IMG/VR virus record: IMGVR_UViG_3300025168_000412
Coordinates: 1 to 30,375 of that record
DNA: 30,375 nt
From: a virus
Direction: 5' to 3' (one strand)
Positions within the stretch are counted from its first letter, which is position 1. The number at the start of each line of letters is the position of its first letter. Both the position numbers and the translations under genes were made by a program. Below are positions 12,201 through 30,350 of the stretch, in pieces. The notes below the pieces were generated by a model. It made no database searches and was not told the origin of the DNA. It saw nothing but the letters and a program-made list of their open reading frames with translations.

Positions 12201-15200
12201 ACTGCGGGTGATTTAAGCATAGACAATAGACGTGCTCACAACGCAACCCCAACAACTAATACGTTTGAAGATATTTGGTATGTAGATGGGTTTCAATCTA
12301 CAATAGATGGTAAGTTTGTAGGTGCTTCTGATACTAGTGGTACTTTTAGTAGTCAAGATCATACAGATAGCACTTCATCTCCAAATACTGGTTTTGAAAC
12401 TAGAGGTATTGGTGTTACAAATTACACCAACGTGTCAAGAATAGAAATTGGTTTTACAGGTTTAGAGCCAGATCCAGATAATTTCCACCACGCAAGAGGA
12501 GATTTTGGTAATGTACACACGGATTTTGGTGCTTATTACGAACAATCTGATGATAATAATAATCCAGGTCCATACGATTATTACAGAGGAGATCAGCATA
12601 GATTGGGATGGGGCATAGGAAATAGTTCAATATATAATGTAGGGGAAGGTCAAATAAATTCTAATTACGCTGAAGAAAGTAGATTTATAAACGCTTTAGT
12701 TCCTGGAACTAAAATAAGATGGGCTGAAGATCCAAACGGAACAGTTTACACCATAACATCCATAGATGATAGTTATAAGTTAAGATATGATTATAGAGTA
12801 ACTCATACTTATAATACAGAAAGTAGAAGACCTGAAAATTTTAGTAGGAATTGGAGACTTTGGTTAGATAAAAAAATGCAATGGGATCCAACAGCTCCTA
12901 ATGATGGGCAATTAGCTATGAATGGTTTTTCTCCTAACACAGATCCTTTTGCTGAGTTTGCGGAAGATGGTAGTACTGGTAGTGGTAATGACGCGGCTAT
13001 TATTAGAGATGGTATTTCAAAAGCACAAGGTTATACTATAGAAATTATAGAAAATATAATTGATGATGAAGAAGTGCCTGAAAATCCTGCTGTTTGGGAA
13101 ACTGAACCGAAACAAGAAACTGATATAAATATTTACTACGAAGCAAGCAATGCTTATCCTATAAATCTAAATAGAAAAAATATACACCATTATATAAAAC
13201 CAGGTATGGCGGTTAAAATTGCTCCTTGGATTCCTACATATGGCACTGGACAATCTCAACTTGGGGTTAGTGATGGGGTTACTGGGTCTGGGCTTAGTCA
13301 ACGATGTACTGTAGATATGGTTAATGTAGATGGAACAATTTTATTAGCTAGTCAATCTGGCTTTTTTGTGGATTTATTTTTACAATTACAAAACCCTGAT
13401 AACAATAATGAACCTGATATTTTAATGTTTAGTGATGATGAAACAACTATTCAGTTTAAAGTTAGTAAAAACCATATAAACACAGGGGTTATAAGTATTG
13501 ATTTTGATTTCCATAATACCGCTACAACTGAATTACCTTGGTTTAATTGTTATTCTTTTAGAAATGGTGTTGAGTCAAATAGAATTAAGGATGCTTTTAA
13601 CAATATAATTATTGATAAAGGAGCTAAGGTTTCAACAACTTTAGAAGGAAATCTATATAAAGAAGAAAGAAGAACTAGTGGCTTAATATATTCTGGTATA
13701 TATAATTCTACAAGTGGTACTAATGATTTAAATCAATTTATACAAGGAGAAAAAATAACAAAAGATTTAAATCCTACATATGGTAGTATTCAAAAATTAT
13801 TTTCAAGAAACACGGATTTAATAACTTTTTGTGAAGATAAAGTCGTAAAAGTTTTAGCAAATAAAGATGCTGTTTTCAATGCTGATGGAAATCCTCAATT
13901 AACTGCTAATCAAAACGTGTTAGGGCAAACAATACCTTTTGTTGGTGATTATGGAATATCAAAAAATCCAGAATCTTTTGCTTCTCAATCGTATAGAGCT
14001 TATTTTACAGATAAACAAAGAGGAGCTATCTTAAGATTATCTAGAGATGGTTTAACTCCTATATCAGAGTATGGTATGAAAACTTGGTTTTTTGATAACT
14101 TAAAAGATACTAAGTATTTAATAGGTGGTTATGATACTAGAAAACAAGAGTATAATTTAACTTTAAAATATAATAATTTAATTGATTCTTACAACACCAC
14201 CAACAAAACCTTAAGTTACAAAGAAGATGTTAAAGGTTGGGTTAGTTTTAAATCTTTTATTCCAGAAAACTCAATTAGTGTTGCAAATGAATATTTTACT
14301 TTTAAAAAAGGTCACGCTTACAAACACCATGATAAGTCTGTTGATAGAAATACTTTTTATTTAGATGTTGCTAATGCCGGGTTTAAACCGTCTTGGGTTG
14401 AAGTTTTATTTAATCAAGAACCACAAACTATTAAATCTTTTTCAGCTCTTAATTATGAGGGTAGTAAAGGGCAGACTTTAGATCTCTACGCTAGAGATAA
14501 TTTTAAAAACAGAATAACATCAACCGGTTGGTATGCAGGAATTACTACAAATGAAGAAACTAATGGAACTGCTTTTAATTTTACAGAAATGCAAGACGAG
14601 TGGTTTAGCCCTATAAAAGGTAATGCAACAATATTAAATACAGAAAATTTCACAGTTCAAGGTTTAGGTATTCTTTCTAGTTTTCTTGTTGCAGGAAATC
14701 CAATTGGGCCAGTATTACCTCCTTTTACGCCATCAGGCAATCCAGTTGTAACTATTGATAATAATCCAATATATACATCTCAAATTTCATATAACATAAC
14801 AGATCCATTATCGCCTTATTTAGATCCACCTAGTTATTTTGATTATGACATAACAATCCCGAGTCAACCTAATGTCAATGGTAACAACGTACCTTATTCA
14901 AATAATTGGGATCTATTTATAACATTAACTTCAGATGGAATTTCAGAAGGTGTATTTACTTTTTACTGGTATGACGCGACTCTTAACGCAATAATACATC
15001 AACAAACTTCAGCTGTGTCTTTTTATGCTACTCTTGGTTGCATGGATAGTTCTGGAGATTCTTCAAATTATAATGCATTAGCTAATGTGAGTGATGGTTC
15101 TTGTTTATATGATTTAACGAATTTATATACACCACCAATTCTTCGTATATACAAGGAATTTATACAAACTTTAGGCCCTGTAAATGAATGGGTATTTTAT

Positions 15201-15608
15201 ATCCAAACGCAATCAGCATCAGCTTTTGGCGCTTTAGTCAATGAACCCTATGTTTATGAATTTCAATATGGTATAGACAGTGGATCACAAAGTCTTCCTG
15301 ATTGGACTAGTAATGGTTTTTCTTCTAACCCAGACGATATGAATAATGGAAATGGTATTGGTGGTGGTGGTGTTTGGTTAGATGCAAGTGCTATTCTCAA
15401 CGGTATTAATAAGTTTATAAAACCAATAACTGAGGGTGAAACATCTCCATTTAATTTCAATTTACAACAACCTAGTAGTAATATAACAGGAGCAGGATTA
15501 TATACTCCAACCGGAACATACACGTGGTTTGGATTTAGATTAAAATGTACAGACACTGTTAATGGTAGAGTTACATTTTCTAATATAGTATCAATATATA
15601 TTAACTAA
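9252..15608 (+). CDS. Giant tail nozzle/muzzle-like protein (2118 residues)
   Basis: The N-terminus (NDFSQGKMNKDLDERLVPNG, residues ~5-24, then QYRDAMNIQIS) is a hallmark I associate with the nozzle/stabilisation proteins of marine and crAss-like phages, related in role to P22 gp10 and T7 gp12. FWTDNNSEPKQINI at residues 243-256 resembles a beta-propeller blade motif. Near residue 1560 comes YFTDKQRGAILRLSRDG, and KGWVSFKSF at 1661-1669 ends the probable propeller core. The protein is several times longer than T7 gp12 (about 800 residues), so large insertions, mostly beta with many Asp/Asn/Ser/Thr, lie between these anchors. The C-terminal ~350 residues are an extra beta-sandwich-like extension. 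It carries a GCMDSSGD ... DGSC module at 1929-1951, a type seen in secreted proteins of marine Bacteroidota, and may contact the host surface. No membrane segment is seen. Confidence 0.75.
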   Translation: MAEIKNDFSQGKMNKDLDERLVPNGQYRDAMNIQISTSEGSDVGTVQNILGNSLADDLILDQNSTCVGAVSDEKNDCFYWFIKGPVYSDLNVGVNKDSIYKYRQGVVTPVFVDVHEVIATYVGHDDLNNTITIFDQDAKSVSVGMIAQFLDNFNQTCHWNDNPIVSISRSQGPSNDLTILTLKNNVNLGVLISQVTQTALYKFVKKDSNLTCPGSGIDTISKSLDFQLNKIITGINILEDLLFWTDNNSEPKQINIKNCIENTDPNGNTSTMLPNSSEPMTVDHITVIKKSPLLAPILEMSSGKRSGLTSGITNIDFDGKVVGQFFDALIQAQSLEFNWNVDDVVIFQSYEINQPLTPLFDFEIKARLDTVYSNVIGQSSADFQFEIISIDSATPTGLDSVTGLAPSFVADLYQPTEKLFEFKFPRFAIRYKYTDNKYSCIGPFSEIAFLPGNFDYHPTKGYNLGMTNQLTSLYIKEFVAIDIPEDVIGIDILYKESNSSNIYVLDTIKPDDDFLTENPYSNTYNAWNYPNNTYETTIPGKYEVKAESIYATLPSNQTIRPWDNVPRKALAQEITGNRIVYGNYLQNYDLISTHPKFNVNIQEFSYDLSAKTPQKSIKSLRDYQLGVVYFDKYGRQTPILTSNSASVKIPKLQANKSSQFKVKLNSSPPSFATHYKFYVKESSNEYYNLAMDRWYEAEDNNIWIAFSSSDRNKVDEDMFLILKKGNDSDDLVEDSARYKIIAIKNQAPDSLKLNKLPQGLEYHNNSNNDVFGQDTGKFPLQSRDYFSVNADVFFNSSLDNIYKALENNLNDELWVRFEQSGNAKTTKDYRVTNISATTDADGVVPGSMLEFKVEKPFESDITFIYDEVNGQIENATAIVFEKRKLENSAKFDGKFFVKINKDQVIKSNIDKKIDEDTKYRVVSSKKIYYMSPDHMALHSDSNDNKANWHTNGLTWANTGRNTGQVPNTNVLSDFFYKFTGFARTAGDLSIDNRRAHNATPTTNTFEDIWYVDGFQSTIDGKFVGASDTSGTFSSQDHTDSTSSPNTGFETRGIGVTNYTNVSRIEIGFTGLEPDPDNFHHARGDFGNVHTDFGAYYEQSDDNNNPGPYDYYRGDQHRLGWGIGNSSIYNVGEGQINSNYAEESRFINALVPGTKIRWAEDPNGTVYTITSIDDSYKLRYDYRVTHTYNTESRRPENFSRNWRLWLDKKMQWDPTAPNDGQLAMNGFSPNTDPFAEFAEDGSTGSGNDAAIIRDGISKAQGYTIEIIENIIDDEEVPENPAVWETEPKQETDINIYYEASNAYPINLNRKNIHHYIKPGMAVKIAPWIPTYGTGQSQLGVSDGVTGSGLSQRCTVDMVNVDGTILLASQSGFFVDLFLQLQNPDNNNEPDILMFSDDETTIQFKVSKNHINTGVISIDFDFHNTATTELPWFNCYSFRNGVESNRIKDAFNNIIIDKGAKVSTTLEGNLYKEERRTSGLIYSGIYNSTSGTNDLNQFIQGEKITKDLNPTYGSIQKLFSRNTDLITFCEDKVVKVLANKDAVFNADGNPQLTANQNVLGQTIPFVGDYGISKNPESFASQSYRAYFTDKQRGAILRLSRDGLTPISEYGMKTWFFDNLKDTKYLIGGYDTRKQEYNLTLKYNNLIDSYNTTNKTLSYKEDVKGWVSFKSFIPENSISVANEYFTFKKGHAYKHHDKSVDRNTFYLDVANAGFKPSWVEVLFNQEPQTIKSFSALNYEGSKGQTLDLYARDNFKNRITSTGWYAGITTNEETNGTAFNFTEMQDEWFSPIKGNATILNTENFTVQGLGILSSFLVAGNPIGPVLPPFTPSGNPVVTIDNNPIYTSQISYNITDPLSPYLDPPSYFDYDITIPSQPNVNGNNVPYSNNWDLFITLTSDGISEGVFTFYWYDATLNAIIHQQTSAVSFYATLGCMDSSGDSSNYNALANVSDGSCLYDLTNLYTPPILRIYKEFIQTLGPVNEWVFYIQTQSASAFGALVNEPYVYEFQYGIDSGSQSLPDWTSNGFSSNPDDMNNGNGIGGGGVWLDASAILNGINKFIKPITEGETSPFNFNLQQPSSNITGAGLYTPTGTYTWFGFRLKCTDTVNGRVTFSNIVSIYIN

Positions 15609-17381: not shown

Positions 17382-18068
17382 ATGGGTCCTTTAGCAATAA
17401 TGGCTGTAACAGGAGCGATAGGAGGTTTATCCAAAATAGCAATGGGTATGCAAGGTCGTGGTGCGAGAAAAGCCGAACTAACAAAAGCACAAGGTGAATA
17501 TGACACTGAAAAGAAAAGATATAAAGATTTTGATATAACAAATCCTTTTGAAAATATACAACAAGATTTTGAAAATACTTTTGAAGACTTAACTGTTAAT
17601 CAACAACAAGCTCAATTCCAAAATCAAATGTTTCAGCAAGCTCAAGCAAATACACTGCAAGGTTTACAAAGATCTGCTGGTGGAAGTGGTGTTGCGTCGT
17701 TAGCACAGGCTTTATCAAATCAATCTATGATGCAATCTCAAGCAGCTTCAGCATCTATAGGCGCGCAAGAATCAGCTAATCAATTAGCAATAGCTAAAGG
17801 CGGTATGATGGAACAACAAATGGAATTACAAGCCCAAACAGTTTATGGTAAAGGTTCTAGTGAACAGCAAAGATTAGAAATGAGTAGACAAAGTACTTTA
17901 CTGGGTATGGGCGCTAATAGATTAGGTGCTGCTAGGCAAGATATAGCTACTCATAAAGCTATGATTGCTGGTGGTGTTGGTGAATTAGCCGGTGCTGTAG
18001 CAACTGGATATGCAGGTGGTTATGATCCTGCAACAGGTGGTTTTAGTAAAAAGAAGTTTTTAGGTTAA
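17382..18068 (+). CDS. Putative internal virion (ejection) protein, Ala/Gln-rich
   Basis: A 228-residue protein with a hydrophobic N-terminal segment (GPLAIMAVTGAIGGLSKIAM, about residues 2-21) and a second Gly/Ala hydrophobic segment near the C-terminus (MIAGGVGELAGAVATGYAGG). Between them lies a long Gln/Ala/Met-rich helical region (about residues 75-165) with a Gly-rich break (RSAGGSGVASLAQAL). This composition is typical of small ejection proteins such as T7 gp14 and P22 gp7, which leave the head with the DNA and help form a channel across the host envelope. It precedes two larger probable internal proteins, as in those phages. The ATG follows an A-rich leader. The role is inferred from composition and position. 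Confidence 0.7.
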   Translation: MGPLAIMAVTGAIGGLSKIAMGMQGRGARKAELTKAQGEYDTEKKRYKDFDITNPFENIQQDFENTFEDLTVNQQQAQFQNQMFQQAQANTLQGLQRSAGGSGVASLAQALSNQSMMQSQAASASIGAQESANQLAIAKGGMMEQQMELQAQTVYGKGSSEQQRLEMSRQSTLLGMGANRLGAARQDIATHKAMIAGGVGELAGAVATGYAGGYDPATGGFSKKKFLG

Positions 18069-18086: not shown

Positions 18087-19814
18087 ATGGCAAACACAAC
18101 AGGACAAGCGGATAGAGGGATATTAGAAGCCGATAGAGGAACTTATGATTCAGGCGCTGCAGACGCTATGATGTATACAGCTTTTGACAAAGGTTTTTCA
18201 GGTGGTACAAAAGCGCTAAAAGAAAAAGCGCAACAAGATTATCAAATACAACAAACTAAATACAATCAATTATTAGAAGCTAAACCACAGCTTATATCTG
18301 CTTATTTAACTGATCAACAAATAGATGATTTGCGGCCAGTTTTAAATGATATTAGTAATGTTTGGTCTGAACAAGCTAGTATATTATCTCAACCAGGCGG
18401 TAAAGATAATTTAAAAGCTCAAAATAGGATTCAAGAAGCAGCTAGTTATATTGCTAATATTGAAAACGGAAATCAACAACTATATAAAATAAGGGAGTTT
18501 AATGAAGATAAAAATGGTGATTTTTCTTTAATGTTAAATGATGAACAAAGACATCATATAAGATCAATAAGTAATACTATTAATGGGGCCGAAGACACGG
18601 GTGTTGTGATTGAGTATCCAAAAAAAGATGGATATCACATGAAAGTAACCATGCCTGATGGTACTGTTTATGATAGAAATAATCCTATACCACAACCTCA
18701 AGGTGAATTTAAAAGAGGTGGAACTGGATTATTAAACATAGCAAATACCGCGAAAGATGATGGGGGAACTGCAACTGCTCCAATGAATACAGGGGTTGCT
18801 GCTAATAATATTTTAAATGAAATAAAAAAATTAAAATCTGATTATAGTGATGAAGATGGTTCTGCAACGAGTCAAGAAAAAAAAGATTTATTCTTTAGAG
18901 ATTTAACACCAGATGGTCAAGATATATCTTACGCACAGGCTTTTGCAAGTGGGAATTTACCAAGAGAGTTTTATTTGGATGAGAATAAACAAATGATATA
19001 TCTTGATTCAAAATCAGATGATAGACAAGGTCCATCTCGAATTGTAGGTCCTAGAAGAAGAGGTAAGGGTGTTAGTAAATTAGGTGTACCGTTTGAAGAT
19101 AGAGCTGCAGTACCAGTGTTTGGCGGAACAGGAGGATATGCAGAAATTCCAAACTGGGCTGGTAGTTTTCAATGGAATGAAGAAGAAGTTAGAGAATATC
19201 TTACAGATAATACTATTTTAGAACGTAATTTAAAATTATTTTCTAAATATTACGGCGGTGCTGTAGCTCAATTGCATAATGATCAATTTAATTTGAAAAA
19301 AGATAGAGCTGGTCAGTATTTAATGGGTATGGATGGTAGTGGTAATATAGTGGACATGTATGGTGACAAAACAGATATGACAATAAAGAAAAGACAACTG
19401 TATTCTAATATGATAGTTGATGGAGCTTTGTATGGTCTTGACAACCAAACTACATCGTTATTAAGAAATGGAAATTACGATCAAATTAGTCAAAATTTAA
19501 CTAGTACATTTACAGGTACTGGGATAACGGTTGGAAAAGTAAAAGATCCAAAGAAAAAAGGAAAATTTATGGCTTCAAATTTTGTTGGAGTAAAGGTGGG
19601 TGATAAACAGCAATTGTTTGATATATCAAAACCTGGTCAAGTTAAAAAAATGAAATTAATGTTAGGTAATAGTAATATATATAATCAATTATCTTTAAGT
19701 GGTAATCCAGAAACTTGGAGAAGTTTTGATGGAAGTGAAATATTGTTTAAAGGTGAAAAATGGAAGACTGGGTATCATTGGAAGGCTACGAATGGTGGAA
19801 TGGATTTTCAATAA
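18087..19814 (+). CDS. Putative internal virion/cargo protein
   Basis: A 575-residue protein in the middle of the internal-protein block, 18 bases after the previous stop. The N-terminus has a short internal repeat (ADRGILEADRGTYD, about residues 8-21), then a helical Gln-rich stretch (about residues 45-140, including KEKAQQDYQIQQTKYNQLL). The central part (about residues 150-320) is Gly/Asp-rich with probable loops. The C-terminal ~200 residues are mixed alpha/beta and include LKLFSKYYGGAVAQLHNDQF and a basic KDPKKKGKFM loop. No enzymatic motif, signal peptide or membrane helix stands out. Position between a gp14/gp7-like protein and the giant multidomain protein suggests a component ejected with the genome. 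A tail-associated role is possible. Confidence 0.6.
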   Translation: MANTTGQADRGILEADRGTYDSGAADAMMYTAFDKGFSGGTKALKEKAQQDYQIQQTKYNQLLEAKPQLISAYLTDQQIDDLRPVLNDISNVWSEQASILSQPGGKDNLKAQNRIQEAASYIANIENGNQQLYKIREFNEDKNGDFSLMLNDEQRHHIRSISNTINGAEDTGVVIEYPKKDGYHMKVTMPDGTVYDRNNPIPQPQGEFKRGGTGLLNIANTAKDDGGTATAPMNTGVAANNILNEIKKLKSDYSDEDGSATSQEKKDLFFRDLTPDGQDISYAQAFASGNLPREFYLDENKQMIYLDSKSDDRQGPSRIVGPRRRGKGVSKLGVPFEDRAAVPVFGGTGGYAEIPNWAGSFQWNEEEVREYLTDNTILERNLKLFSKYYGGAVAQLHNDQFNLKKDRAGQYLMGMDGSGNIVDMYGDKTDMTIKKRQLYSNMIVDGALYGLDNQTTSLLRNGNYDQISQNLTSTFTGTGITVGKVKDPKKKGKFMASNFVGVKVGDKQQLFDISKPGQVKKMKLMLGNSNIYNQLSLSGNPETWRSFDGSEILFKGEKWKTGYHWKATNGGMDFQ

Positions 19815-19830
19815 AATTAAATAACAATAC

Positions 19831-22800
19831 ATGGCTGAAGCAAAAAATATATATAGTCCATCCACATACGCCATGCCTAATAGTAGCCTGGCTGATAGGG
19901 GAGACATGAGTTTAGCAGAGTTTAATAAAAACCCTGGTAACATCATGTATTATCAAGTGTATCCTGATAAAATAACAGGTAAAGGTCATACAAAAGAAAA
20001 ACCTGTTTACGTAAAACATCCAAAAGCCGGTCAGTTAATAATGCGTGATGGTAAACCAAAAATATCTGATTATGCACAACATCTTTTAGATAATAATTTT
20101 GATATTAAACCTGGCGCTGCAAATAACCACGGTGTAATGATACATTTTGAAACCGATAATGATGGTTTAAAAGCAAAGAAGCAATGGTGGAGTACGGTTA
20201 AAAACTGGAAACCATATAAAGGTAAAACTGTAGATGAAGCTCTTAGAACTTACAGTGGTGGTGCCACTGGTTATGATTCTAGTGGAATTTCTGGTGGTTT
20301 TGATGGTACTAAATTACTTTCAGATTTAAACCAATCAGAATTAGATTCTCTTTCTATAAACCAAATGAATGCTGAAGATTCCGTTAACTATAAACGTTTA
20401 ATCAATAAGAATCTTATAATTATAGATCCAGATTCTAATACTGCTTCTATAAATCCAGCTAACGATACTACGTACAATATCCAAGGGGACGAGATAAATC
20501 CTATTACTGGAGAGATTATAATTAAAGATAGTGGTGATAGTACCGCAAACATACCTATCGATACTAGTGATGTTATAGCTACAGAGACTATTTCTAGCGA
20601 AGGTATAGGTGTCACACCTACTGCTGAAGAAAGAGAAAAATACAATGCAGAGATAGCGCAAAGGAGATCTAATAATCTAAAACCGGATTCTTCTACTGAA
20701 AATTTTATTAGAAACCCTGAAGCTCATTCAGCAACTCAAACTGACGATATAACTACACAGGGTTCTGAAGCTATACCAATACCTTCTGGTTCTTCAAATT
20801 ATGAAACTGCAAATTTGAAAAATAAAAGTACGAGTATTTTATCGGAGACTGATGATGAACAACCTGCGCCAGAAACAGACGAAGAAATATTTACGGTTAA
20901 ACCTCTTAACGAACAAACAACTGATTCAGAAGCTGAAAATCGTTACGGACCTAACCCACTAGATAATAATTTATTTCAAACAACTAGTGATGATAAAGTA
21001 GGAAAATATAAAGGTAGACCTCATCAATTAGTAATTGGTAAAACCACTATTGATGTACCTGGAACAGGTGCGTACGAAGGACTTAATTTTACGCAAGATG
21101 ATCTTATACGTAATGTAGACGCACAGGTAGATGCTGAAGCTTTAGGTGCTGATAGTGAAGCAATAACAAGCGTGGATGTTGGAAGCATATATACAAGTCA
21201 TTTAAATACTATTGAAGATTGGGAAAGTTTTCCTGAAAATAAAAAATTATCTGACGTATACGATGCTGACAATTATGACCGCACACTTCATGTGCCTCCT
21301 GACATAAAGCGAATAAGATATGAAGTTGAAAGATACAATAAAATAACAGACAATGTACTACGAGGATATGACGCTAAAGAACAAGATTTAGAATTAAGAG
21401 CTGCTATATTATCATCAATGACACCTGAAGATATATTAAAAGCAGAAGCGGATAGATTTACAGATATTGAATACGAATATTTATACTTAAATGGAGTAAA
21501 CAAGGTTTTAGAAAATAATCAAAAGAAATTAAACCTTGAAAATACAAAAATAATAGATGAAGGTGAGGTAGTTAAAAGAAAACAAGAGAAAATAACAAGT
21601 GATGTTGAGGGATATTTAAGTGAAGTTGATGAGTTACAAAGTCAATGGAAGGATATAAAACAAAACGGTAAATTTACATATTTTGGTGGTGTTCAAAGAT
21701 GGGTACCAAATTTTCAAAACGAATTTCAACAACTTGAATATAATGAGTTTTTAGAAACAAAAAAAGATTTAGACATATGGAGAGATGAAATTAATGTAGA
21801 GCAAAAAGAGTTTGAAAAAGATGTTGCTGATGTAAACGGACTTATAGAGATTTATAACGAGGAAGCAAACAAATTATATGCTAATATTGGTTTTCATCAA
21901 CAAGAAATGGTTTTCACACCTTCTGATCCTAGTCTAAGATATATGACCGGAGAAGATGGTCAATTTGTTATAAGTAATTCTTGGAATGAATCTATAAGAG
22001 ATTTAGGTGGTAAAGACAATGAAATGGCTAAAGCACTTGACGTTGTGTCTAGTGGCGCTAGTAATTATCTTGAGTTTAAAGCCTTTGTGAAAGTATTTTC
22101 TGGGAGCATGAAAAAATATACATATCCAGCGGCAGCCATAATAGTTGGTGGCGCTGCGGTTATGTCATGGGCTGGCATAGGAACAACAGATTTAAAAAAC
22201 ATGCGAGGTTTTAGAGGTAAAAAGGATGTAGATGGAATGATATCTTATGATGCAATGGATTTCCTTGCTGATGCTTTTGGTAATTTATCGAAAAAAAATA
22301 TACTACCTACTTCTAATCGTCCAGATGCAAATTTATTTTTACAAAAACCTATTGAAGGTCAAATATTTCCATATATTAATAGTGAAACTGGTGGTTGGTA
22401 TAAGTATGGTAAGGCCATGAGTGAATTAATTCCTTATACTTTAATGATCGCGGGTGGTGTTAGAAAGTACGCGGCAGGAAGGGCCACTTCTTCTGCAGAA
22501 CGCCTACGTGCTGTGCAAGGAGCTGGTAAAGGAAAACAATTTAGAAGATTAGGATTGGTTGATGTTGGTGGTAAAATTTCTTTAAATCCAAGCAAGTTTG
22601 TAAATAGTTTGCAAAAAAGATTTAAAATGGGTGATAGGTTAGCCAACAACTTGAAACAAATAGATTTAACTTACAAAATGTTGCTTTCTCAAAATGTTGC
22701 TTATGCTAGATCTGAAGGTTTAGATGGTCAATCAGCCTTCGCAATGGGTAGTTGGATGAGTTTAATGACGGGTATTTCTCAATCAATAATGCCTGATTAC

Positions 22801-25800
22801 TTGTGGTTTAAAGGCGTTAAAGGCAAAAGCTTAATGAAAGGTCTTGTTAATGAGATGAAAAAAACTGCAGCATTTACTTTGTCTAAAAATATAACTTTAG
22901 GCGCAAAAGCTATAGCTTTTAAAAAAGCTGGTACACAATGGTTTAGAAACTCTTTTAAAGAATTATTAGAGGAAGAATTAGATGTAGCGTTAAATGATGT
23001 AGTAAAATCTAATTACTTAGCAAATCATTCACCAGAGGTTTTTGATATTATGACGCAAAATCATTTAGTTGTTGGGACAATGATGTTAACTGGTATGCTT
23101 GGTAGTGTACAAGCGTTTAAAACACAAAAAGCAGTAAAAAACAACATTTATTATTCACTACTAAAGGATCAATCAACCATTATAGACGGTATTGGTGATA
23201 AATTACAAGCTGTTGAATCTGAAATAAAAAGACTTGAAGGTTATACTAGTTTAGAAAATTGGGAAAAAACTCATTTAAAAGAAATGAAGAAGTCTAAAGA
23301 TGCTTTAGTAAAAACAAGGGATCATGCGTTTGACATTGCTAGAGCTATACAAATAGCACCTGAATATGTAACCACTGAAACTATTGATTTATTGATAAAG
23401 AAAAATAAATTAGTTGATGAAAAAGTTGAATTGTTAAAAAGTAAAGATAAGGTTGCTGTTGAAAAACAAGTTGAAGATTTAAATGCTAAAATTGAAAAAG
23501 TAAACGAACAAATAAGAACCGAAAGTTATACTGTTAAAAAAGAAAAATTAAATAAAATATTAGAAAAAAGAGGTAGAAAATTAGCTAAAGACGAGGGGTA
23601 CGAATATTACGAAACAAAAAGTAGAGAAGAATATCTAGAGTTTGCTAATAAAGAAAACGCTAAAAGAGCAAAAGACAATAAAGATTTGAATGATAAAATT
23701 GTTGCTTTAGAAAGAGATTTTAATAACTATGTTAAAGGAGGTCAATTAAATGAAAAAACTCTAAAAGAAATAAAGAAATTAAAAGAGAAGAAACAAGTTC
23801 TTGTACCTGATACTTTACAAGAATTAAAAGGTAAAAGAGCTGGGGGTTTTACGTATTATAATGATATAACTAAAAGACATACAATTATAATAAATTGGGA
23901 TATTGCTAGAGAATCTAAAAACTTTGCAGTTGTACAACATGAAATAATGCATGCTATGTTAAGGCAAAGTTTTAATACTGCTAAGGGTCGAAAAATGATG
24001 ACAAGAATGGCTATGGCTATAAGAGCTGAATTATTAGAAAACCCATCTGTAATGTCTAGATATGTTATCAATAAATTCGCTGGTTATGATGGTGGCTTAA
24101 TAAACGAAGCAAATGCTGATGAATTATTTACAATAATGTCGGAGTATATGCTACAAAATAATTATAGGCTTTCAAAATCATTTTTAGGTAAAATTGGCGA
24201 TATGCTTAGACTTATTGCTAGAGAGTTTGGTTATAACTTTAAAATTAACAATGTTAACGACGTAATGAACTTTATTCAAGATTACTCAAAAGAGGCAAAA
24301 AGAGGTAAGTTTAGTCTTGGAATGAAAAAAATTAAAGAAAAAGGATTAAAAGGAAGTGTGAAGCTTTCTGCGGAACAAAGAGCTAGGCTAGATGTCGAAA
24401 ATAAAATTACTGGAGCGGCAAAAGTAAGTAAATCTATATATACAGATCCAAAAATATTAGAAGATTTAGGGTTGAAAGAATCGTCTAAAAAAATAATTAT
24501 TGAAAACGCTAGAATAAGACAATTAATTTTAGATGAAGGTATAGAGCAAGATGGTAAAATTGTAGCGTCACCAGAGCTGCAAGACGCTTTAATAGCAAAC
24601 AACATGGCTGCAGCTGTTAATTTAGCTAAGTTTGCTGCGGCTAATCCAAAAATAATGGTACTTGAGGAGGGTAAAAGAGTTGATTTTAAACAATTTTTAT
24701 CTGGTTATTATAAAGAACTGACTGAATTAGCGGGAACGTATGATGCTAGTATAAATGAATTTGGTCAATACATGAACACTATACTACCGCTTAGGTATAA
24801 TCAAATATTAGACGCAGAGAAGAAAGGTGAAATAGAAGGCTCTGTAAGTTTAGACGCTGAAGGTGTAAATGAAGTTGAAGATACAGACGTTGGAATATTA
24901 GGTAGGTTAGATGAAAGTGAATCTAGTTTACCTGGTGTTAATATAGCTTTTAAAGTTGGTGGAGAGGCTTTACAAAAAGAATATGAAGATCATTACGAGA
25001 AAGGTTATTTAATGATTAAAAATGGTCCATTAAAAGGTCAAAGCAGGGAAGAATGGCTTGAAGAACTGAAAGAACTTGGTTTTGTTGATGCTTTTGGAAA
25101 TATTTTTGATATTAATAATATAGATTTAGCAAATCTTCAAGATTTAGCAGTTAATATAACAAGTAAAATATCAGGTATTGATGCTGATAAGTTAAATTAT
25201 GTACTTAATGCTAAAGCAAGGAAAGAAGGTAAAATACCAGCTGTTAAGTTTATGGCTAATTTAAGGATAGATGAGTCAAGAGGTTCTAATGAACTAAGAG
25301 ACGCTCAGTTAGCTATGAAAAAAATAGGGATGGCATTATTTGTTGGACCAGTATTAACAGAGGGTTTTGTTGGTACTACAAGCAAGCCAATAGGATCATT
25401 AAAAATAAGACCAAATCTACAAAAATTACATTATAATAAAGGAAGCAAAAAGAACAATGTTCAAATGTTTCATAAGAAACCAAATATTGATATTAAAACA
25501 GCTGAAGAATCTGCTGGAATTATAGATGGTAAATCTTTTAGAGCAGATAGAAATATATCAGCAAACGTTCATGCTTACTGGAATGCGTTTGGTAAAATGG
25601 TAGGTAGTCAATCAATGAGAAATGTTTTAGCAAAACACGGTGATTTAACTCAAAAGATTAGAGTAGCTTTAGAGGATGGTAAATCTAAATTAGCACAGTC
25701 TAAATATTATAAAGAGTCTGCAAAAGAAATAAGAGAAGAAATAATAGAAGGCTTAGAAGGAATGTCTATAAACCTTACCGGTATAATTATTGACTATCAA

Positions 25801-28800
25801 GAAGATTCTGATACATTTAAACAAAAAACTAAAGAATTGTTTAAAGAAACATTTGAAAATTCAAATGTTGATTATAATAAACTATATAATCAACTATTTC
25901 AAAAAATAGGTTTGTTAACAATATGGGGCTCAATGTCTGTTAGATATCAAGCGTTAGGTATGGAGGCGCCTGTGTTTAAGGATTTTATAGAAGAACAATT
26001 AGAAAATATAGCAGAAGATAGTGAAGTGTTTAATAGTATTGGTATAGTACCATCACCTGGCTTTGGTCCACTTTCTAAAAACGCTGCTTACGGGAGAAAT
26101 GACGTTGAAAGAGGTAGGGCTAATTTAGCTGAATATGCGCAAGAACTTAAAAAACGAGTTCTTGATCCTAAAGATAGTATGACAATAGAAAAAGCTATGA
26201 TATATCTTACTATGATGGGTGGAATGTATAAAAACGCTAGTGGCATAGCAAATAAACAATTTAGTCCGGAATCAAAAGGCTCTACTAATGTTAAATACAA
26301 TTTTGTAATGTTAGATTCTAAAAGATTTAGAGCTAATGTAACTGAAAGCGCTCAAGATTATTATGATGTAATAAATTTAGCGACTGATAACTTTTTTGAT
26401 ATTAGTGGAAAAAAATTATCCTTATTACTTAAAGATAATTCAAATGCTTTTTTAAAAGAATTAATGAAAGACGGAATTGATGCAACTCTAGAAAAAAGAA
26501 ACGCACAAGCTGATATTGCTAGAGAACTTTTTAAAGACACTATTATTAGAAATTGGAAAAAGTACGGTATAAGTGAAAACCCAAGAGATAGAATGATGTT
26601 TGCGCAGGTAATTTTTAGTTATAGTGAGGGTATGGAATCGCCATCGAGAAAAGCAGCTAAAATTTGGGGTATTGCTGAAGGTTTATATGATTTTAAAAAT
26701 AATAAATATATTGGTGGTGATATAAACAAAGTTGGTTCTGACTTAGAATATGACCATAATAAACCTCATCGTAAATTAATACAAAGATCTATTGAGATTT
26801 TATCTAAAAACAATGAGATTGAATGGAATGATTTGTTTGATAAAGCTTTTGAGGATTATACTATAAGTATTATAACAAATAAACATAATAAAGCTATTAA
26901 TAGTGCTGGTTTTCAATCAATAATAGGGCCTAATTATGCTGAGGGTAGTAAAATGACAGACGTAACGCGTGGTGTTTTTAACAGATCTTATAATGATATA
27001 CTTTTAAATCATCCTGATATTAAACCTATTCTTGAAATTGCATCTAGAGGTAAAGTAAGAGTTGGAGATGGTTTTGTAAATGTTAAAGCACCTAAAGTTA
27101 GCAAGTCAATAGCTTACCATGAAGTTGCTAAAATAGCTAGATCAATAGAGTATACAGAAAATACTAAAGGTATAAGTATTTTAGATTTTGACGATACTTT
27201 AGCAACAACTAAGTCAAGCGTGTTGTTTACTACGCCTGAAGGCATTAAAGGTAAGTTAAATGCTGAGGAATATGCTAGAGATTATGTTGCTTTAGAAAGT
27301 GCTGGTTATAAATTTGATTTTTCAGAATTTAACAAAGTTATAGATGGTAAAGTTGCTCCATTATTTAATAAAGCTTTAAAACTTGCAAGAAAGTTTGGAA
27401 CAGAAAACATGTTTGTGCTTACGGCTAGACCTGCAGAAGCTGCTCCAGCTATATACCAGTTTTTAAAAGAAAATGGACTAGAAATACCTTTGGCAAATAT
27501 AACAGGTTTAGAAAATTCTACTGCAGAAGCTAAAGCAATGTGGATAGTTGGTAAAGTTGAAGAAGGATACAATGATATATATTTTGCTGATGATGCTCTA
27601 CAGAATGTTCAAGCAGTTAAAAATGTTGTAGAACAATTAGATGTTAAATCAAAAGTACAACAAGCTAAGGCATCTAAAAGTATTGAATATAGTGAAGAAT
27701 TTAACAAGATACTAGAAGAGGCAAGTGGTATTAATGCTGAAAAACAATTTTCTGCAACAAAAGGTAGGAAAAGAGGTGAAAAGAAAGGTAAGTATAGATT
27801 TTGGATACCACCATCAGCAGAAGATTTTATGGGTTTATTGTATAGTTTTTTAGGTAAAGGTAAGAAAGGTGATGCGCAAATAAAGTTTTTCAAAAAAGTT
27901 TTATTAGATCCTTTCGCTAAAGCTATAACTCAACTAAATCAAGCTAAACAACAAATGGCTAATGAATATGTAGAGTTATTAAAAAGTTTTAATGGTATGC
28001 GAAAAAGACTTCAAGAGAAAATTATGGATGATGATTTTGTAATTGAAGACGCTGTTAGAGTTTATTTGTGGAATAAAGCTGGTTACAAAATACCTGGTTT
28101 ATCAGAAAAAGATAAACAAGAATTAATTGATATTGTTGAAAGTGATGAAAAACTATTAGCATTCGCTGCTTCTGTTGGAAAAATATCAAGAGATGAAAAT
28201 GGTTATATTAAACCAAGTGAAGAATGGGAGACCGATGGTATAAGGCATGATCTTTTTCAAAAATCTGGTAAAATTAAAAGAGCAGAATTTTTAGAAACAT
28301 TTAAACAAAATAGAGAAATAATATTTGGTAAATGGTCAGGTAAAAAATTAGTTGGTCCTAACATGAACAAAATAGAAGCTATTTATGGTCCTGATTTTAG
28401 AAGCGCTTTAGAAGATGTGTTATGGAGAATGGAAAATGGATCTAATAGAACTTTTGGTAATAACAAAAAAGTTAACGCTTTTATGAACTGGGTAAACGGT
28501 TCGGTTGCTGCTGTTATGTTTGTTAACGTAAGATCAGCCGTGCTTCAAACCTTGTCAATGGCTAACTTTATAAATTGGGAAGAAAATAATATGTTTGCAG
28601 CGGCTAGTGCTTTTGCAAATCAAGGACAATTTTGGACTGATTTTGCTTATTTATTTAATTCTGATTTCTTAAAACAACGTAGATCTGGTTTAACAACAGA
28701 TTTAAACGCTTCTGAATTAATAACACATTTAAGTAAAACTGATAATAAAGCAAAAGCAGCTGTTAATTGGTTGTTAAAAAAAGGTTTTTTACCTACTCAA

Positions 28801-29805
28801 ATTGCAGATAGTTTTGCAATATCAATGGGTGGGGCTACTTTTTATAGAAATAGAGTTGGCAAATACATAAGTGAAGGTTTAGATCAACAACAAGCAGAAG
28901 AAAAAGCTTTTCAAGATTTCCAAGAAATAGCGGAAGCTACTCAACAGTCAGCTAGAGCAGATATGATTTCTCAAGAACAAGCGAGTCCACTTGGTAGATT
29001 AATATTAGCTTTTCAAAATACTCCTATGCAATATGCTCGTTTAATGAAAAAAGCGGGATTAGATTTAATAAATGGTAGAGGGAGCACAAAATCAAATATA
29101 TCAAAAATAATATATTATGGTTTTGTTCAAAACCTTATATTCCATACTTTACAAACAGGTTTATTTGCTTTAATGGCACTTGGTGTAGATGATGAAGACG
29201 AAGAGTTAATAGATAAAAAAGAAGCGCGGGTACTTCAAGGAATGCTTGATACTACGTTAAGAGGTTTAGGTGTTGGAGGTGCTATTGTTTCTACTTTAAA
29301 AAATATGGCGTTAAAAGCGTATGAACAAGATAAAAAAGGTAGAAGAGCTGATTATACTTATGTTTTATTAGAATTTTTAAACCTATCTCCTCCAGTTGGT
29401 ATTAAAGCAAGAAAACTTTACGGCGCAACGCAGAGTTGGAAGTGGAATAAAAAAGAAGCTGAAGAATTAGGTATTGTAAATTTAGATAATCCTATATGGG
29501 AAGTTAGTACAGGAGTAACAGAAGCTGTTTTTAACGCTCCAGTAAATAGAATGTATAATAAATTACAAAACATAAGCGAAGCATTAAACTCTGAAAATGA
29601 AACTTGGCAACGTATAGCTGTTATTATGGGTTGGAATGCTTGGGATTTTGGTATAGACACAAGAAAAAAGACAACAAGTGGACGGGATTTGGCTAGTGGT
29701 GGATTTGAGTTTGCAGATGATAATTTTGAATTGGCAGGTGATGATTTTGAGTTTGCAGATGATATTTTTGAATTATCAAATGATGAGTTTGAGTTTGCGA
29801 ATTGA
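19831..29805 (+). CDS. Giant multidomain polyvalent virion protein (NPGNI domain, Zn-peptidase, HAD)
   Basis: A single 3324-codon frame, a third of the window. In order: an NPGNI-type domain (residues ~30-155), resembling muramidase-like domains of virion proteins; a Ser/Thr/Asp-rich linker (~190-390); coiled coil (~590-710); hydrophobic segments at ~765-784 and ~1078-1096; long Lys/Glu coiled coil (~1115-1330); a zinc-peptidase with HEIMH at 1370-1374 and candidate third ligand in NEANADE (1425-1431); a large helical middle with YDHNKPH near 2307; a complete HAD domain (DFDDT 2452-2456, LTARP 2530-2534, ADD 2586-2588); a C-terminal region with RFWIPPSAEDFMGLLYSFLG and hydrophobic stretches at ~2888-2915 and ~3093-3121; and an acidic, Phe-rich repeat tail from 3292. 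Large virion proteins joining peptidase and modifying domains are known as polyvalent proteins, thought to enter the cell with phage DNA. It is probably packed in the head and ejected. No RNA polymerase motif was found. Confidence 0.8.
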   Translation: MAEAKNIYSPSTYAMPNSSLADRGDMSLAEFNKNPGNIMYYQVYPDKITGKGHTKEKPVYVKHPKAGQLIMRDGKPKISDYAQHLLDNNFDIKPGAANNHGVMIHFETDNDGLKAKKQWWSTVKNWKPYKGKTVDEALRTYSGGATGYDSSGISGGFDGTKLLSDLNQSELDSLSINQMNAEDSVNYKRLINKNLIIIDPDSNTASINPANDTTYNIQGDEINPITGEIIIKDSGDSTANIPIDTSDVIATETISSEGIGVTPTAEEREKYNAEIAQRRSNNLKPDSSTENFIRNPEAHSATQTDDITTQGSEAIPIPSGSSNYETANLKNKSTSILSETDDEQPAPETDEEIFTVKPLNEQTTDSEAENRYGPNPLDNNLFQTTSDDKVGKYKGRPHQLVIGKTTIDVPGTGAYEGLNFTQDDLIRNVDAQVDAEALGADSEAITSVDVGSIYTSHLNTIEDWESFPENKKLSDVYDADNYDRTLHVPPDIKRIRYEVERYNKITDNVLRGYDAKEQDLELRAAILSSMTPEDILKAEADRFTDIEYEYLYLNGVNKVLENNQKKLNLENTKIIDEGEVVKRKQEKITSDVEGYLSEVDELQSQWKDIKQNGKFTYFGGVQRWVPNFQNEFQQLEYNEFLETKKDLDIWRDEINVEQKEFEKDVADVNGLIEIYNEEANKLYANIGFHQQEMVFTPSDPSLRYMTGEDGQFVISNSWNESIRDLGGKDNEMAKALDVVSSGASNYLEFKAFVKVFSGSMKKYTYPAAAIIVGGAAVMSWAGIGTTDLKNMRGFRGKKDVDGMISYDAMDFLADAFGNLSKKNILPTSNRPDANLFLQKPIEGQIFPYINSETGGWYKYGKAMSELIPYTLMIAGGVRKYAAGRATSSAERLRAVQGAGKGKQFRRLGLVDVGGKISLNPSKFVNSLQKRFKMGDRLANNLKQIDLTYKMLLSQNVAYARSEGLDGQSAFAMGSWMSLMTGISQSIMPDYLWFKGVKGKSLMKGLVNEMKKTAAFTLSKNITLGAKAIAFKKAGTQWFRNSFKELLEEELDVALNDVVKSNYLANHSPEVFDIMTQNHLVVGTMMLTGMLGSVQAFKTQKAVKNNIYYSLLKDQSTIIDGIGDKLQAVESEIKRLEGYTSLENWEKTHLKEMKKSKDALVKTRDHAFDIARAIQIAPEYVTTETIDLLIKKNKLVDEKVELLKSKDKVAVEKQVEDLNAKIEKVNEQIRTESYTVKKEKLNKILEKRGRKLAKDEGYEYYETKSREEYLEFANKENAKRAKDNKDLNDKIVALERDFNNYVKGGQLNEKTLKEIKKLKEKKQVLVPDTLQELKGKRAGGFTYYNDITKRHTIIINWDIARESKNFAVVQHEIMHAMLRQSFNTAKGRKMMTRMAMAIRAELLENPSVMSRYVINKFAGYDGGLINEANADELFTIMSEYMLQNNYRLSKSFLGKIGDMLRLIAREFGYNFKINNVNDVMNFIQDYSKEAKRGKFSLGMKKIKEKGLKGSVKLSAEQRARLDVENKITGAAKVSKSIYTDPKILEDLGLKESSKKIIIENARIRQLILDEGIEQDGKIVASPELQDALIANNMAAAVNLAKFAAANPKIMVLEEGKRVDFKQFLSGYYKELTELAGTYDASINEFGQYMNTILPLRYNQILDAEKKGEIEGSVSLDAEGVNEVEDTDVGILGRLDESESSLPGVNIAFKVGGEALQKEYEDHYEKGYLMIKNGPLKGQSREEWLEELKELGFVDAFGNIFDINNIDLANLQDLAVNITSKISGIDADKLNYVLNAKARKEGKIPAVKFMANLRIDESRGSNELRDAQLAMKKIGMALFVGPVLTEGFVGTTSKPIGSLKIRPNLQKLHYNKGSKKNNVQMFHKKPNIDIKTAEESAGIIDGKSFRADRNISANVHAYWNAFGKMVGSQSMRNVLAKHGDLTQKIRVALEDGKSKLAQSKYYKESAKEIREEIIEGLEGMSINLTGIIIDYQEDSDTFKQKTKELFKETFENSNVDYNKLYNQLFQKIGLLTIWGSMSVRYQALGMEAPVFKDFIEEQLENIAEDSEVFNSIGIVPSPGFGPLSKNAAYGRNDVERGRANLAEYAQELKKRVLDPKDSMTIEKAMIYLTMMGGMYKNASGIANKQFSPESKGSTNVKYNFVMLDSKRFRANVTESAQDYYDVINLATDNFFDISGKKLSLLLKDNSNAFLKELMKDGIDATLEKRNAQADIARELFKDTIIRNWKKYGISENPRDRMMFAQVIFSYSEGMESPSRKAAKIWGIAEGLYDFKNNKYIGGDINKVGSDLEYDHNKPHRKLIQRSIEILSKNNEIEWNDLFDKAFEDYTISIITNKHNKAINSAGFQSIIGPNYAEGSKMTDVTRGVFNRSYNDILLNHPDIKPILEIASRGKVRVGDGFVNVKAPKVSKSIAYHEVAKIARSIEYTENTKGISILDFDDTLATTKSSVLFTTPEGIKGKLNAEEYARDYVALESAGYKFDFSEFNKVIDGKVAPLFNKALKLARKFGTENMFVLTARPAEAAPAIYQFLKENGLEIPLANITGLENSTAEAKAMWIVGKVEEGYNDIYFADDALQNVQAVKNVVEQLDVKSKVQQAKASKSIEYSEEFNKILEEASGINAEKQFSATKGRKRGEKKGKYRFWIPPSAEDFMGLLYSFLGKGKKGDAQIKFFKKVLLDPFAKAITQLNQAKQQMANEYVELLKSFNGMRKRLQEKIMDDDFVIEDAVRVYLWNKAGYKIPGLSEKDKQELIDIVESDEKLLAFAASVGKISRDENGYIKPSEEWETDGIRHDLFQKSGKIKRAEFLETFKQNREIIFGKWSGKKLVGPNMNKIEAIYGPDFRSALEDVLWRMENGSNRTFGNNKKVNAFMNWVNGSVAAVMFVNVRSAVLQTLSMANFINWEENNMFAAASAFANQGQFWTDFAYLFNSDFLKQRRSGLTTDLNASELITHLSKTDNKAKAAVNWLLKKGFLPTQIADSFAISMGGATFYRNRVGKYISEGLDQQQAEEKAFQDFQEIAEATQQSARADMISQEQASPLGRLILAFQNTPMQYARLMKKAGLDLINGRGSTKSNISKIIYYGFVQNLIFHTLQTGLFALMALGVDDEDEELIDKKEARVLQGMLDTTLRGLGVGGAIVSTLKNMALKAYEQDKKGRRADYTYVLLEFLNLSPPVGIKARKLYGATQSWKWNKKEAEELGIVNLDNPIWEVSTGVTEAVFNAPVNRMYNKLQNISEALNSENETWQRIAVIMGWNAWDFGIDTRKKTTSGRDLASGGFEFADDNFELAGDDFEFADDIFELSNDEFEFAN
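19921..20295 (+). other. NPGNI (muramidase-like) domain in the giant protein
   Basis: Residues 34-38 read NPGNI. About 80 residues later comes HFETDNDGLKAKKQWWSTV, then YKGKTVDEALRTYSGG. The order NPGNI, aromatic-plus-Gly-Ala 'F-x-T/D-x-x-x-G-x-x-A' and a 'Y-x-x-K-T-x-x-E-x-x-x-x-Y' helix matches a peptidoglycan-cleaving domain found in phage structural proteins such as PRD1 P5-like and tail lysozyme-like proteins. Placing such an enzyme at the N-terminus of an ejected protein would let it open the cell wall during infection. No catalytic residue is assigned. Confidence 0.5.
23836..24285 (+). other. Zinc-metallopeptidase domain in the giant protein
   Basis: Residues ~1336-1485. A beta strand (RHTIIINWDI) precedes the helix with HEIMH (1370-1374), giving two zinc-binding His and the catalytic Glu. 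About 50 residues further, NEANADELFTIMSEYM supplies acidic residues (E1426, E1431) suited as third ligand, as in gluzincin-type enzymes. A helical end (LRLIAREFGYN, then VNDVMNFIQDY) follows. It may process virion proteins, itself or a host target. Confidence 0.72.
27166..27660 (+). other. HAD-superfamily hydrolase domain in the giant protein
   Basis: Residues ~2446-2610. Motif I ILDFDDTLA has the nucleophile D2452 and acid/base D2454; motif II is LTARP (T2531); motif III Lys is probably in AEAKAMW; motif IV is FADDALQNV (D2587, D2588). All four motifs are intact, so a working phosphatase or related hydrolase is expected. The cap region is the insert after motif I. Repeated KxSKSIxY-like motifs bracket the domain. 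Confidence 0.82.
29704..29802 (+). repeat. 21-base tandem repeat encoding an acidic Phe-rich tail
   Basis: Four full units (29704-29724, 29725-29745, 29746-29766, 29767-29787) and a partial fifth (29788-29802) end the giant gene. Each encodes F-E-[FL]-[AS]-[DGN]-D/E-x. Units 1, 3 and 5 share FEFA and units 2 and 4 share FEL, so there is a 42-base higher-order period. The result is a 33-residue acidic, phenylalanine-rich C-terminal tail. Confidence 0.93.
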
Positions 29806-30350
29806 AAAAACTTTTTATACTTTTAATATTAGTGTCTTGTGCGAAAGAAATTGATGATCTTGGTTTTAGAGTTTATACTATTTTAGAAGGCCAACACAGC
29901 TCTGGTGTTTTTGTAAATTATGCAGAGAATTCTAGAATAAAATTTGATTTTATGCTTAATGAATCTGCTTATTATGAAACTGAAATACCAGAAAACCAAC
30001 ATGATGTAAATAAAATATACGGCGTAAGTGATTTTGGAGTTAGGCATCAAAAATACTCTATAAGATTAGGATGGAGGTACTTAAATGAACAGTTAGAACT
30101 TTGTTGGTTAAAACATGAAGACGATGTTCATTCGTCTGCTACAATAAAAATTATACAACCAGATGTAATATATAGTGCTATTATTGATATAAATACGTTT
30201 TATTATGTAATAGTAATAGATAACGATACTACGCTTGTTCGTAGAAGACCAAAAGGTAACTGGGGTTTAAAAAGAAGGTATTATTTATACCCTTATTTTG
30301 GTGGTAATGAATATGCACCACACAACATAACAATTAAAATAAAAGAATGA
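29802..30350 (+). CDS. Lipoprotein of Bacteroidota-like family, TTG start
   Basis: A 182-residue protein whose start is TTG at 29802, overlapping the TGA of the giant gene (TTGA, 4 bases). An in-frame stop at 29790-29792 leaves no upstream start, and only TTG gives the full signal peptide MKKLFILLILVSC. The lipobox is LVSC with C13 as lipid attachment site. The following AKEIDD is acidic, a feature linked to surface export of lipoproteins in Bacteroidota. The mature protein is beta-rich. DVNKIYGVSDFGVRHQKYSI then RLGWRYLNEQLEL, and near the C-terminus YLYPYFGGNEYAPHNITIKI, match a pattern I recall from lipoproteins of Bacteroidota genomes. It may act at the cell surface, for example in superinfection exclusion or lysis. 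That is inference. The next gene overlaps its stop by ATGA. Confidence 0.75.
   Translation: MKKLFILLILVSCAKEIDDLGFRVYTILEGQHSSGVFVNYAENSRIKFDFMLNESAYYETEIPENQHDVNKIYGVSDFGVRHQKYSIRLGWRYLNEQLELCWLKHEDDVHSSATIKIIQPDVIYSAIIDINTFYYVIVIDNDTTLVRRRPKGNWGLKRRYYLYPYFGGNEYAPHNITIKIKE

Follow-up and report, generated by a model that had tools for sequence, protein, structure and literature searches.

The window analysed here is a viral record of 30,375 bases, in which the plus-strand gene at 19831-29805 encodes a putative giant polyvalent ejection protein of 3324 amino acids. The open reading frame starts with ATG and its 3324 codons contain no internal stops, so the single uninterrupted gene of a preliminary description is real. 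Landmark motifs in the protein are NPGNI at residue 34, HEIMH at residue 1370 and DFDDT at residue 2452. The gene order of the window runs from the end of the terminase gene through portal and capsid-type proteins, a tail-tip muzzle-like protein and two ORFs to genes encoding proteins of 228, 575 and 3324 amino acids. The muzzle-like protein (2118 amino acids; 9252-15608, plus strand) matched PHROG 14478 with an E value of 5e-125 and the Pfam family crAss_MUZ_C with an E value of 8e-4, which is under the curated cut-off. The 228-amino-acid protein (17382-18068, plus strand) is a small ejection-protein candidate that resembles gp14 in place, size and make-up; it had a match in 50 of 94 family loci and none in a search of the PDB. 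Directly 5′ of the giant gene lies the 575-amino-acid protein (18087-19814, plus strand), gp15-like by place and size, and an ORF of at least 100 amino acids (median 520) terminates at the start of the giant gene in all 91 relatives compared. The giant stop codon is overlapped by a lipoprotein-like ORF of 182 amino acids (29802-30350, plus strand), a 73% identical relative of which lies 3′ of the giant gene in G027. Gene order in G026 (72 kb) and G027 (71 kb) is as in the window, and the giant gene follows the tail and neck genes in all three. The muzzle-like relatives at G026:C1:18569-28759 and G027:C1:28192-35460 are larger than the window protein (3396 and 2422 amino acids), and the homology is mostly to parts.

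The portal of the window has its relatives in Elemovirus, Pervagoviridae and Pachyviridae, groups represented here by phages of marine and Baltic Flavobacteriia; two phages from the Pervagoviridae and Pachyviridae, Gundel and Calle, have podoviral shape (PMC8776804). The host is probably a marine flavobacterium, but it is unproven, because the hits of the giant family in genomes are phage contigs within metagenome-assembled genomes (MAGs) of mixed taxa. The contigs of family members L204-L209 had been assigned to MAGs from unrelated taxa, among them a Woesearchaeota bin and a Maricaulis bin, which is likely to reflect misassignment of phage contigs during binning.

An alignment query located the giant family at 444 places, 80 of which were fetched, and 93 relatives were fetched overall. 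The position of the gene in these marine podovirus-like genomes is constant, as first seen in IMG/VR contigs found through their portal, and complete members are 2032-3620 residues long. A Pfam scan with the whole protein gave zero hits, and tblastn of both halves against named phages found no match. A search with the C-terminal 633 amino acids as sole query returned no close relatives, a result that carries no weight, as its reference was not frame-checked. Identity along the protein is low as far as residue 2400 (9-26%) and higher across residues 2401-3300 (24-66%).

The N-terminal 200 residues or so form an exchangeable slot among the relatives. In the window, this slot (residues ~25-175; 19903-20355, plus strand) holds a putatively lysozyme-like domain with the NPGN motif, which is shared with L128, where it was found only through comparison within the fetched family. 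This domain had no match in Pfam, PHROG or the PDB, and a direct search of viral contigs found no relatives; one weak phage match (E 0.5) came from a separate search. In other relatives, the slot contains an SLT transglycosylase (L124 and L149, the latter 94% identical to L151 over its full length) or a GH108 muramidase (L125, L148, L179 and L186, each above the Pfam cut-off). In L126, we read by eye an M15-like sequence (SAHFTGNAFD...PHYHFEA) that Pfam did not confirm. Wall enzymes open two clades, whereas the majority of the family has plain linker sequence from the N terminus onwards.

The closest view of an exchange comes from L148 and L149, which are 93.6% identical over 3108 residues (L148 260-3366). 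Similarity between them is undetectable before residues 260 and 222, respectively, and DNA similarity returns at the start codon and continues upstream. The intervening segments, which begin at the start codon, encode GH108 in one phage (L148:2462-3238) and SLT in the other (L149:2633-3295). This difference is the exchange of a wall-enzyme cassette. Misassembly is an unlikely source, as SLT is present on two contigs of the clade (L149 and L151) and GH108 on four, and the pairs window/L124 and L126/L128 also show slot exchange. In a tree of the conserved C terminus, the slot labels are interleaved: the window pairs with L124, L126 pairs with L128, and a third group unites L148, L149 and L151. 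That close relatives have SLT, GH108 or an M15-like sequence at this position places the proposed wall-opening role of the N terminus on firmer ground than the window by itself. These data support a wall-cutting head on the giant, for which the cassette exchange is the best evidence; for the NPGN domain, the argument is its position in the slot. The muramidase-like identity given to it in the preliminary description is thus a tentative one based on slot position, the databases offering no direct support.

Between the slot and the next recognizable domain, residues ~201-1279 (20431-23667, plus strand) make up a linker with coiled coils that evolves fast, relatives being 10-26% identical there. 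Membrane passage by hydrophobic segments had been proposed, but a Kyte-Doolittle scan of the giant found a single 19-residue window above 1.6, at residues 767-785, and a strongly hydrophobic window is absent from 66 of the 89 complete relatives. Downstream of the metallopeptidase-like domain, no family matched the variable middle region (residues ~1571-2440; 24541-27150, plus strand).

The metallopeptidase-like domain (23668-24540, plus strand) contains HEIMH at residues 1370-1374 (23938-23952) and a candidate third-ligand glutamate at residue 1431 (24121-24123). An HExxH motif is present in 88 of the 89 complete relatives, compared with 0.008 expected per composition-shuffled protein, so the motif is not due to chance. 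The sole exception, L143, has HDAFH at the same place, with the catalytic glutamate replaced by aspartate. Glu 1431, which lies 57 residues past HExxH, is invariant in all 87 aligned relatives in a region of approximately 15% mean column identity, and H, E, H and this E are the only invariant columns. Because the sequences were picked by HExxH, invariance of that motif in the alignment is by construction, whereas Glu 1431 was unselected. Together, the motif and the glutamate read as a gluzincin signature. The conserved residues thus bear out the peptidase motif, but not yet a peptidase fold: an AF2 model of the region (pLDDT 82) had no Foldseek match in the PDB, and its only match in a viral library was the giant protein of Flavobacterium phage elemo (probability 0.97, E 0.18). 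In line with this fold match, the domain matched elemo gp72 in a profile search (iE 4.8e-7, Z set to 1000). Profile searches of the PDB with the peptidase and HAD alignments yielded chance matches only.

The HAD phosphatase domain (residues 2441-2615; 27151-27675, plus strand), with Asp2452 as the predicted nucleophile, is intact, as had been described: an alignment of 37 diverse members shows no variation in motifs I (DFDxT), II (LTAR), III (Lys) and IV (DDA), and DFDxT is kept in 89 of 89 complete members. It has the lowest dN/dS of the giant (0.008-0.11, against 0.11-0.60 in the linker). Between the window and L124, dN and dS were 0.12 and 1.11 for the HAD and 0.72 and 1.21 for the linker; as these dS values are near or above 1, close to saturation, the L149/L148 comparison (HAD dN 0.002, dS 0.30) is the better measure. 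By these substitution rates, the HAD is the part of the giant under the strictest selection. An AF2 model of the region (pLDDT mostly 71-88) matched HAD phosphatases in Foldseek, namely 1nnl (probability 1.00) and the Legionella effector HADs Lem4 (0.91) and Ceg4 (0.89), although the matches were weak, with E values of 0.05 and above.

Several observations bear on the substrate. The HAD matched PHROG 415, ‘polynucleotide kinase’ (E 5.4e-7), and one of the 37 members matched TIGR01664, a DNA 3′-phosphatase family. In three of 93 relatives, a P-loop kinase of zeta-toxin/AAA_33 type is inserted between HAD motifs I and II (L118:7645-8352; L163:10013-10720; L123:8489-8938, the last cut by the contig end); the window HAD has none, and L198 carries a short non-kinase insert at this site. 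Because of the two family matches and the kinase insert, the leading candidates for the substrate are nucleic-acid ends or nucleotides. The same three observations favour the possible, if unlikely, reading that the HAD, with the kinase where present, heals ends that host defence nucleases leave in DNA or tRNA, as T4 Pnkp does. The giant resembles Pnkp in that its HAD matches PHROG 415 and in that three relatives have a P-loop kinase too; this kinase, however, lies inside the HAD rather than before it as in Pnkp. Against end-healing, 90 of 93 members have no kinase, and the RNA ligase PF09414, the only ligase family searched, is absent from 24 large contigs.

The C-terminal module (residues 2616-3290; 27676-29700, plus strand) is conserved and mostly helical and belongs to no known family. 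In blocks of 60 residues, identity is approximately 40-63% along most of the module, which agrees with the conserved C-terminal region first noted. The module had a weak profile match to the C terminus of Gundel_1 gp074 (iE 2.6e-7, Z set to 1000). We considered LPD38 for this region and rejected it, as PF18857 had no match in the window, in elemo, Gundel_1 and MW202828, or in four large family contigs from IMG/VR.

The domain architecture, the conserved catalytic residues, a fixed genomic place and repeated exchange of wall cassettes were thus established by computation, and they invite comparison with known entry proteins. According to a review (PMC8954989), T7 gp16 has an N-terminal transglycosylase, a long tape and a cytoplasmic C terminus. 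Similar to the giant, gp16, part of the podovirus ejectosome, is the last and largest of three adjoining genes (with gp14 and gp15) and places a peptidoglycan hydrolase ahead of a long helical body; a hydrolase in this position is clear in L124, L125, L148, L149, L179 and L186 and unrecognized by Pfam in the window. The giant differs in being 2.5 times longer, in adding HExxH and HAD domains and in swapping wall enzymes among unrelated folds, and it had no Pfam or PHROG match to the gp16 families and no detectable sequence relation to them. The review passages on this point concern a hydrolase that has moved from gp16 to gp15 homologues or back, and not an exchange of wall-enzyme types in one slot.

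Polyvalent proteins of the N4 vRNAP and P1 DdrB type (Iyer et al. 2017) also join disparate domains in one polypeptide beside virion genes. They combine lysozyme and zincin domains, and early-phase injection and zincin self-processing have been proposed for them (PMC5512222). The giant joins the wall slot, HExxH with its glutamate, the HAD and the C-terminal module in one chain, and its gene adjoins structural genes. It differs from these proteins in its HAD phosphatase, a domain for which a term search in the main text of Iyer 2017 came up empty, and in having no LPD38 match. Among closer phages, the giants of elemo (gp72) and Cellulophaga phi40:1 (gp101) end the same late-gene block; elemo gp72 shares the peptidase domain and Gundel_1 gp074 part of the C-terminal module, and the HAD profile matched none of these three proteins. 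Crassviruses (phicrAss001 gp45-gp50) offer a parallel to the window phage and its muzzle-like protein in that they have a muzzle and store proteins that are later ejected, with the cargo gp45 thought to exit N terminus first, partly unfolded, past the muzzle (PMC10172136). No sequence relation of this cargo to the giant was shown, and, by ORF size in the two longest contigs, no ORF besides the muzzle, giant and fibre-like genes is big enough for a virion RNA polymerase.

We infer that the giant is packaged in the virion, by synteny with phi40:1 gp101, which, together with its neighbours gp097-gp100, is annotated as a virion protein by MS/MS. Whole-family profiles matched gp101 and the giant of the Manatee Spring phage only with bias filters off, and we do not take these matches as evidence of homology. 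Taken together, we think it probable that the giant is a T7 gp16-like polyvalent ejection protein of a podovirus-like phage that opens the wall and then brings two enzymes into the cell. Within a presumed set of three ejection proteins (228, 575 and 3324 amino acids), it is the largest, and it would be stored in the virion and exit N terminus first through the portal and muzzle. Its N-terminal domain would cut peptidoglycan at the entry site, as the swap slot suggests, and the helical body and C-terminal module may cross the inner membrane or guide DNA. The HAD phosphatase would reach the cytoplasm and act early on a phosphorylated substrate, and polyprotein processing is the likeliest task of the gluzincin domain, in keeping with proposals for other members of the polyvalent class. 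The approximately 80 of 93 relatives with no recognized N-terminal wall enzyme count against this reading, as do the scarcity of hydrophobic windows, the empty PDB fold search for the peptidase, the weak E values of the HAD fold matches and the absence of PF09414 from the 24 large contigs. Of the original proposal, the joining of a wall-opening N terminus, a metallopeptidase-like domain and a HAD in one protein at the ejection or cargo place is upheld, whereas the peptidase fold, membrane passage through hydrophobic segments and presence in virions are not.

Alternatively, the giant may be mainly a structural or channel protein, like T7 gp16, with its HAD and peptidase acting in virion assembly or maturation, such as scaffold or polyprotein processing, instead of after infection. 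A precedent is DdrB of phage P1, whose cleavage precedes packaging and is probably the work of its own metallopeptidase domain (PMC5512222), and the C-terminal module is conserved as much as the HAD. We nevertheless consider this account doubtful, as the N-terminal wall enzymes point to entry, and we know of no maturation step that needs a HAD phosphatase. That the HAD is instead a protein phosphatase, for example for phosphotyrosine, that rewires host signalling is improbable despite its fold matches to Lem4 and Ceg4, as the sequence matches go to polynucleotide kinase/3′-phosphatase families and the inserted kinase is of a zeta-toxin/AAA_33-like type that mostly acts on small molecules or nucleic acids.

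Under the preferred reading of an ejection protein, it is conceivable, although we give the idea little credence, that a virion-delivered phosphatase, with a kinase in some members, processes nucleic-acid ends or nucleotide signals within minutes of the onset of infection and disarms nuclease-based defence, with the wall-cutting head exchanged as a cassette to fit the walls of different hosts. Wall enzymes in ejection proteins and zincins in polyvalent proteins are already known. Within a limited literature search, the giant family, the HAD as its strictest part, the kinase insertion within the HAD and the exchange of one wall enzyme for an unrelated one in giants that are otherwise nearly identical are new. 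These results define a large marine phage family of putative giant ejection proteins, and the HAD phosphatase is its most strictly kept part, so that phosphatase activity injected early in infection can be tested directly. The L148/L149 pair amounts to a domain swap made by nature, which bears on the question of what part of the entry apparatus contacts the host wall.

Two minor features were also observed. The C-terminal tail of the window protein (29704-29802) is a short acidic repeat, FEFADDNFELAGDDFEFADDIFELSNDEFEFAN, in place of which many relatives have a tail rich in lysine and arginine. Near the start of G026, we read by eye a GroEL-like gene (L211:75-1415), and a groEL gene is annotated in the Manatee Spring phage (MW202828.1, 40933-42561).
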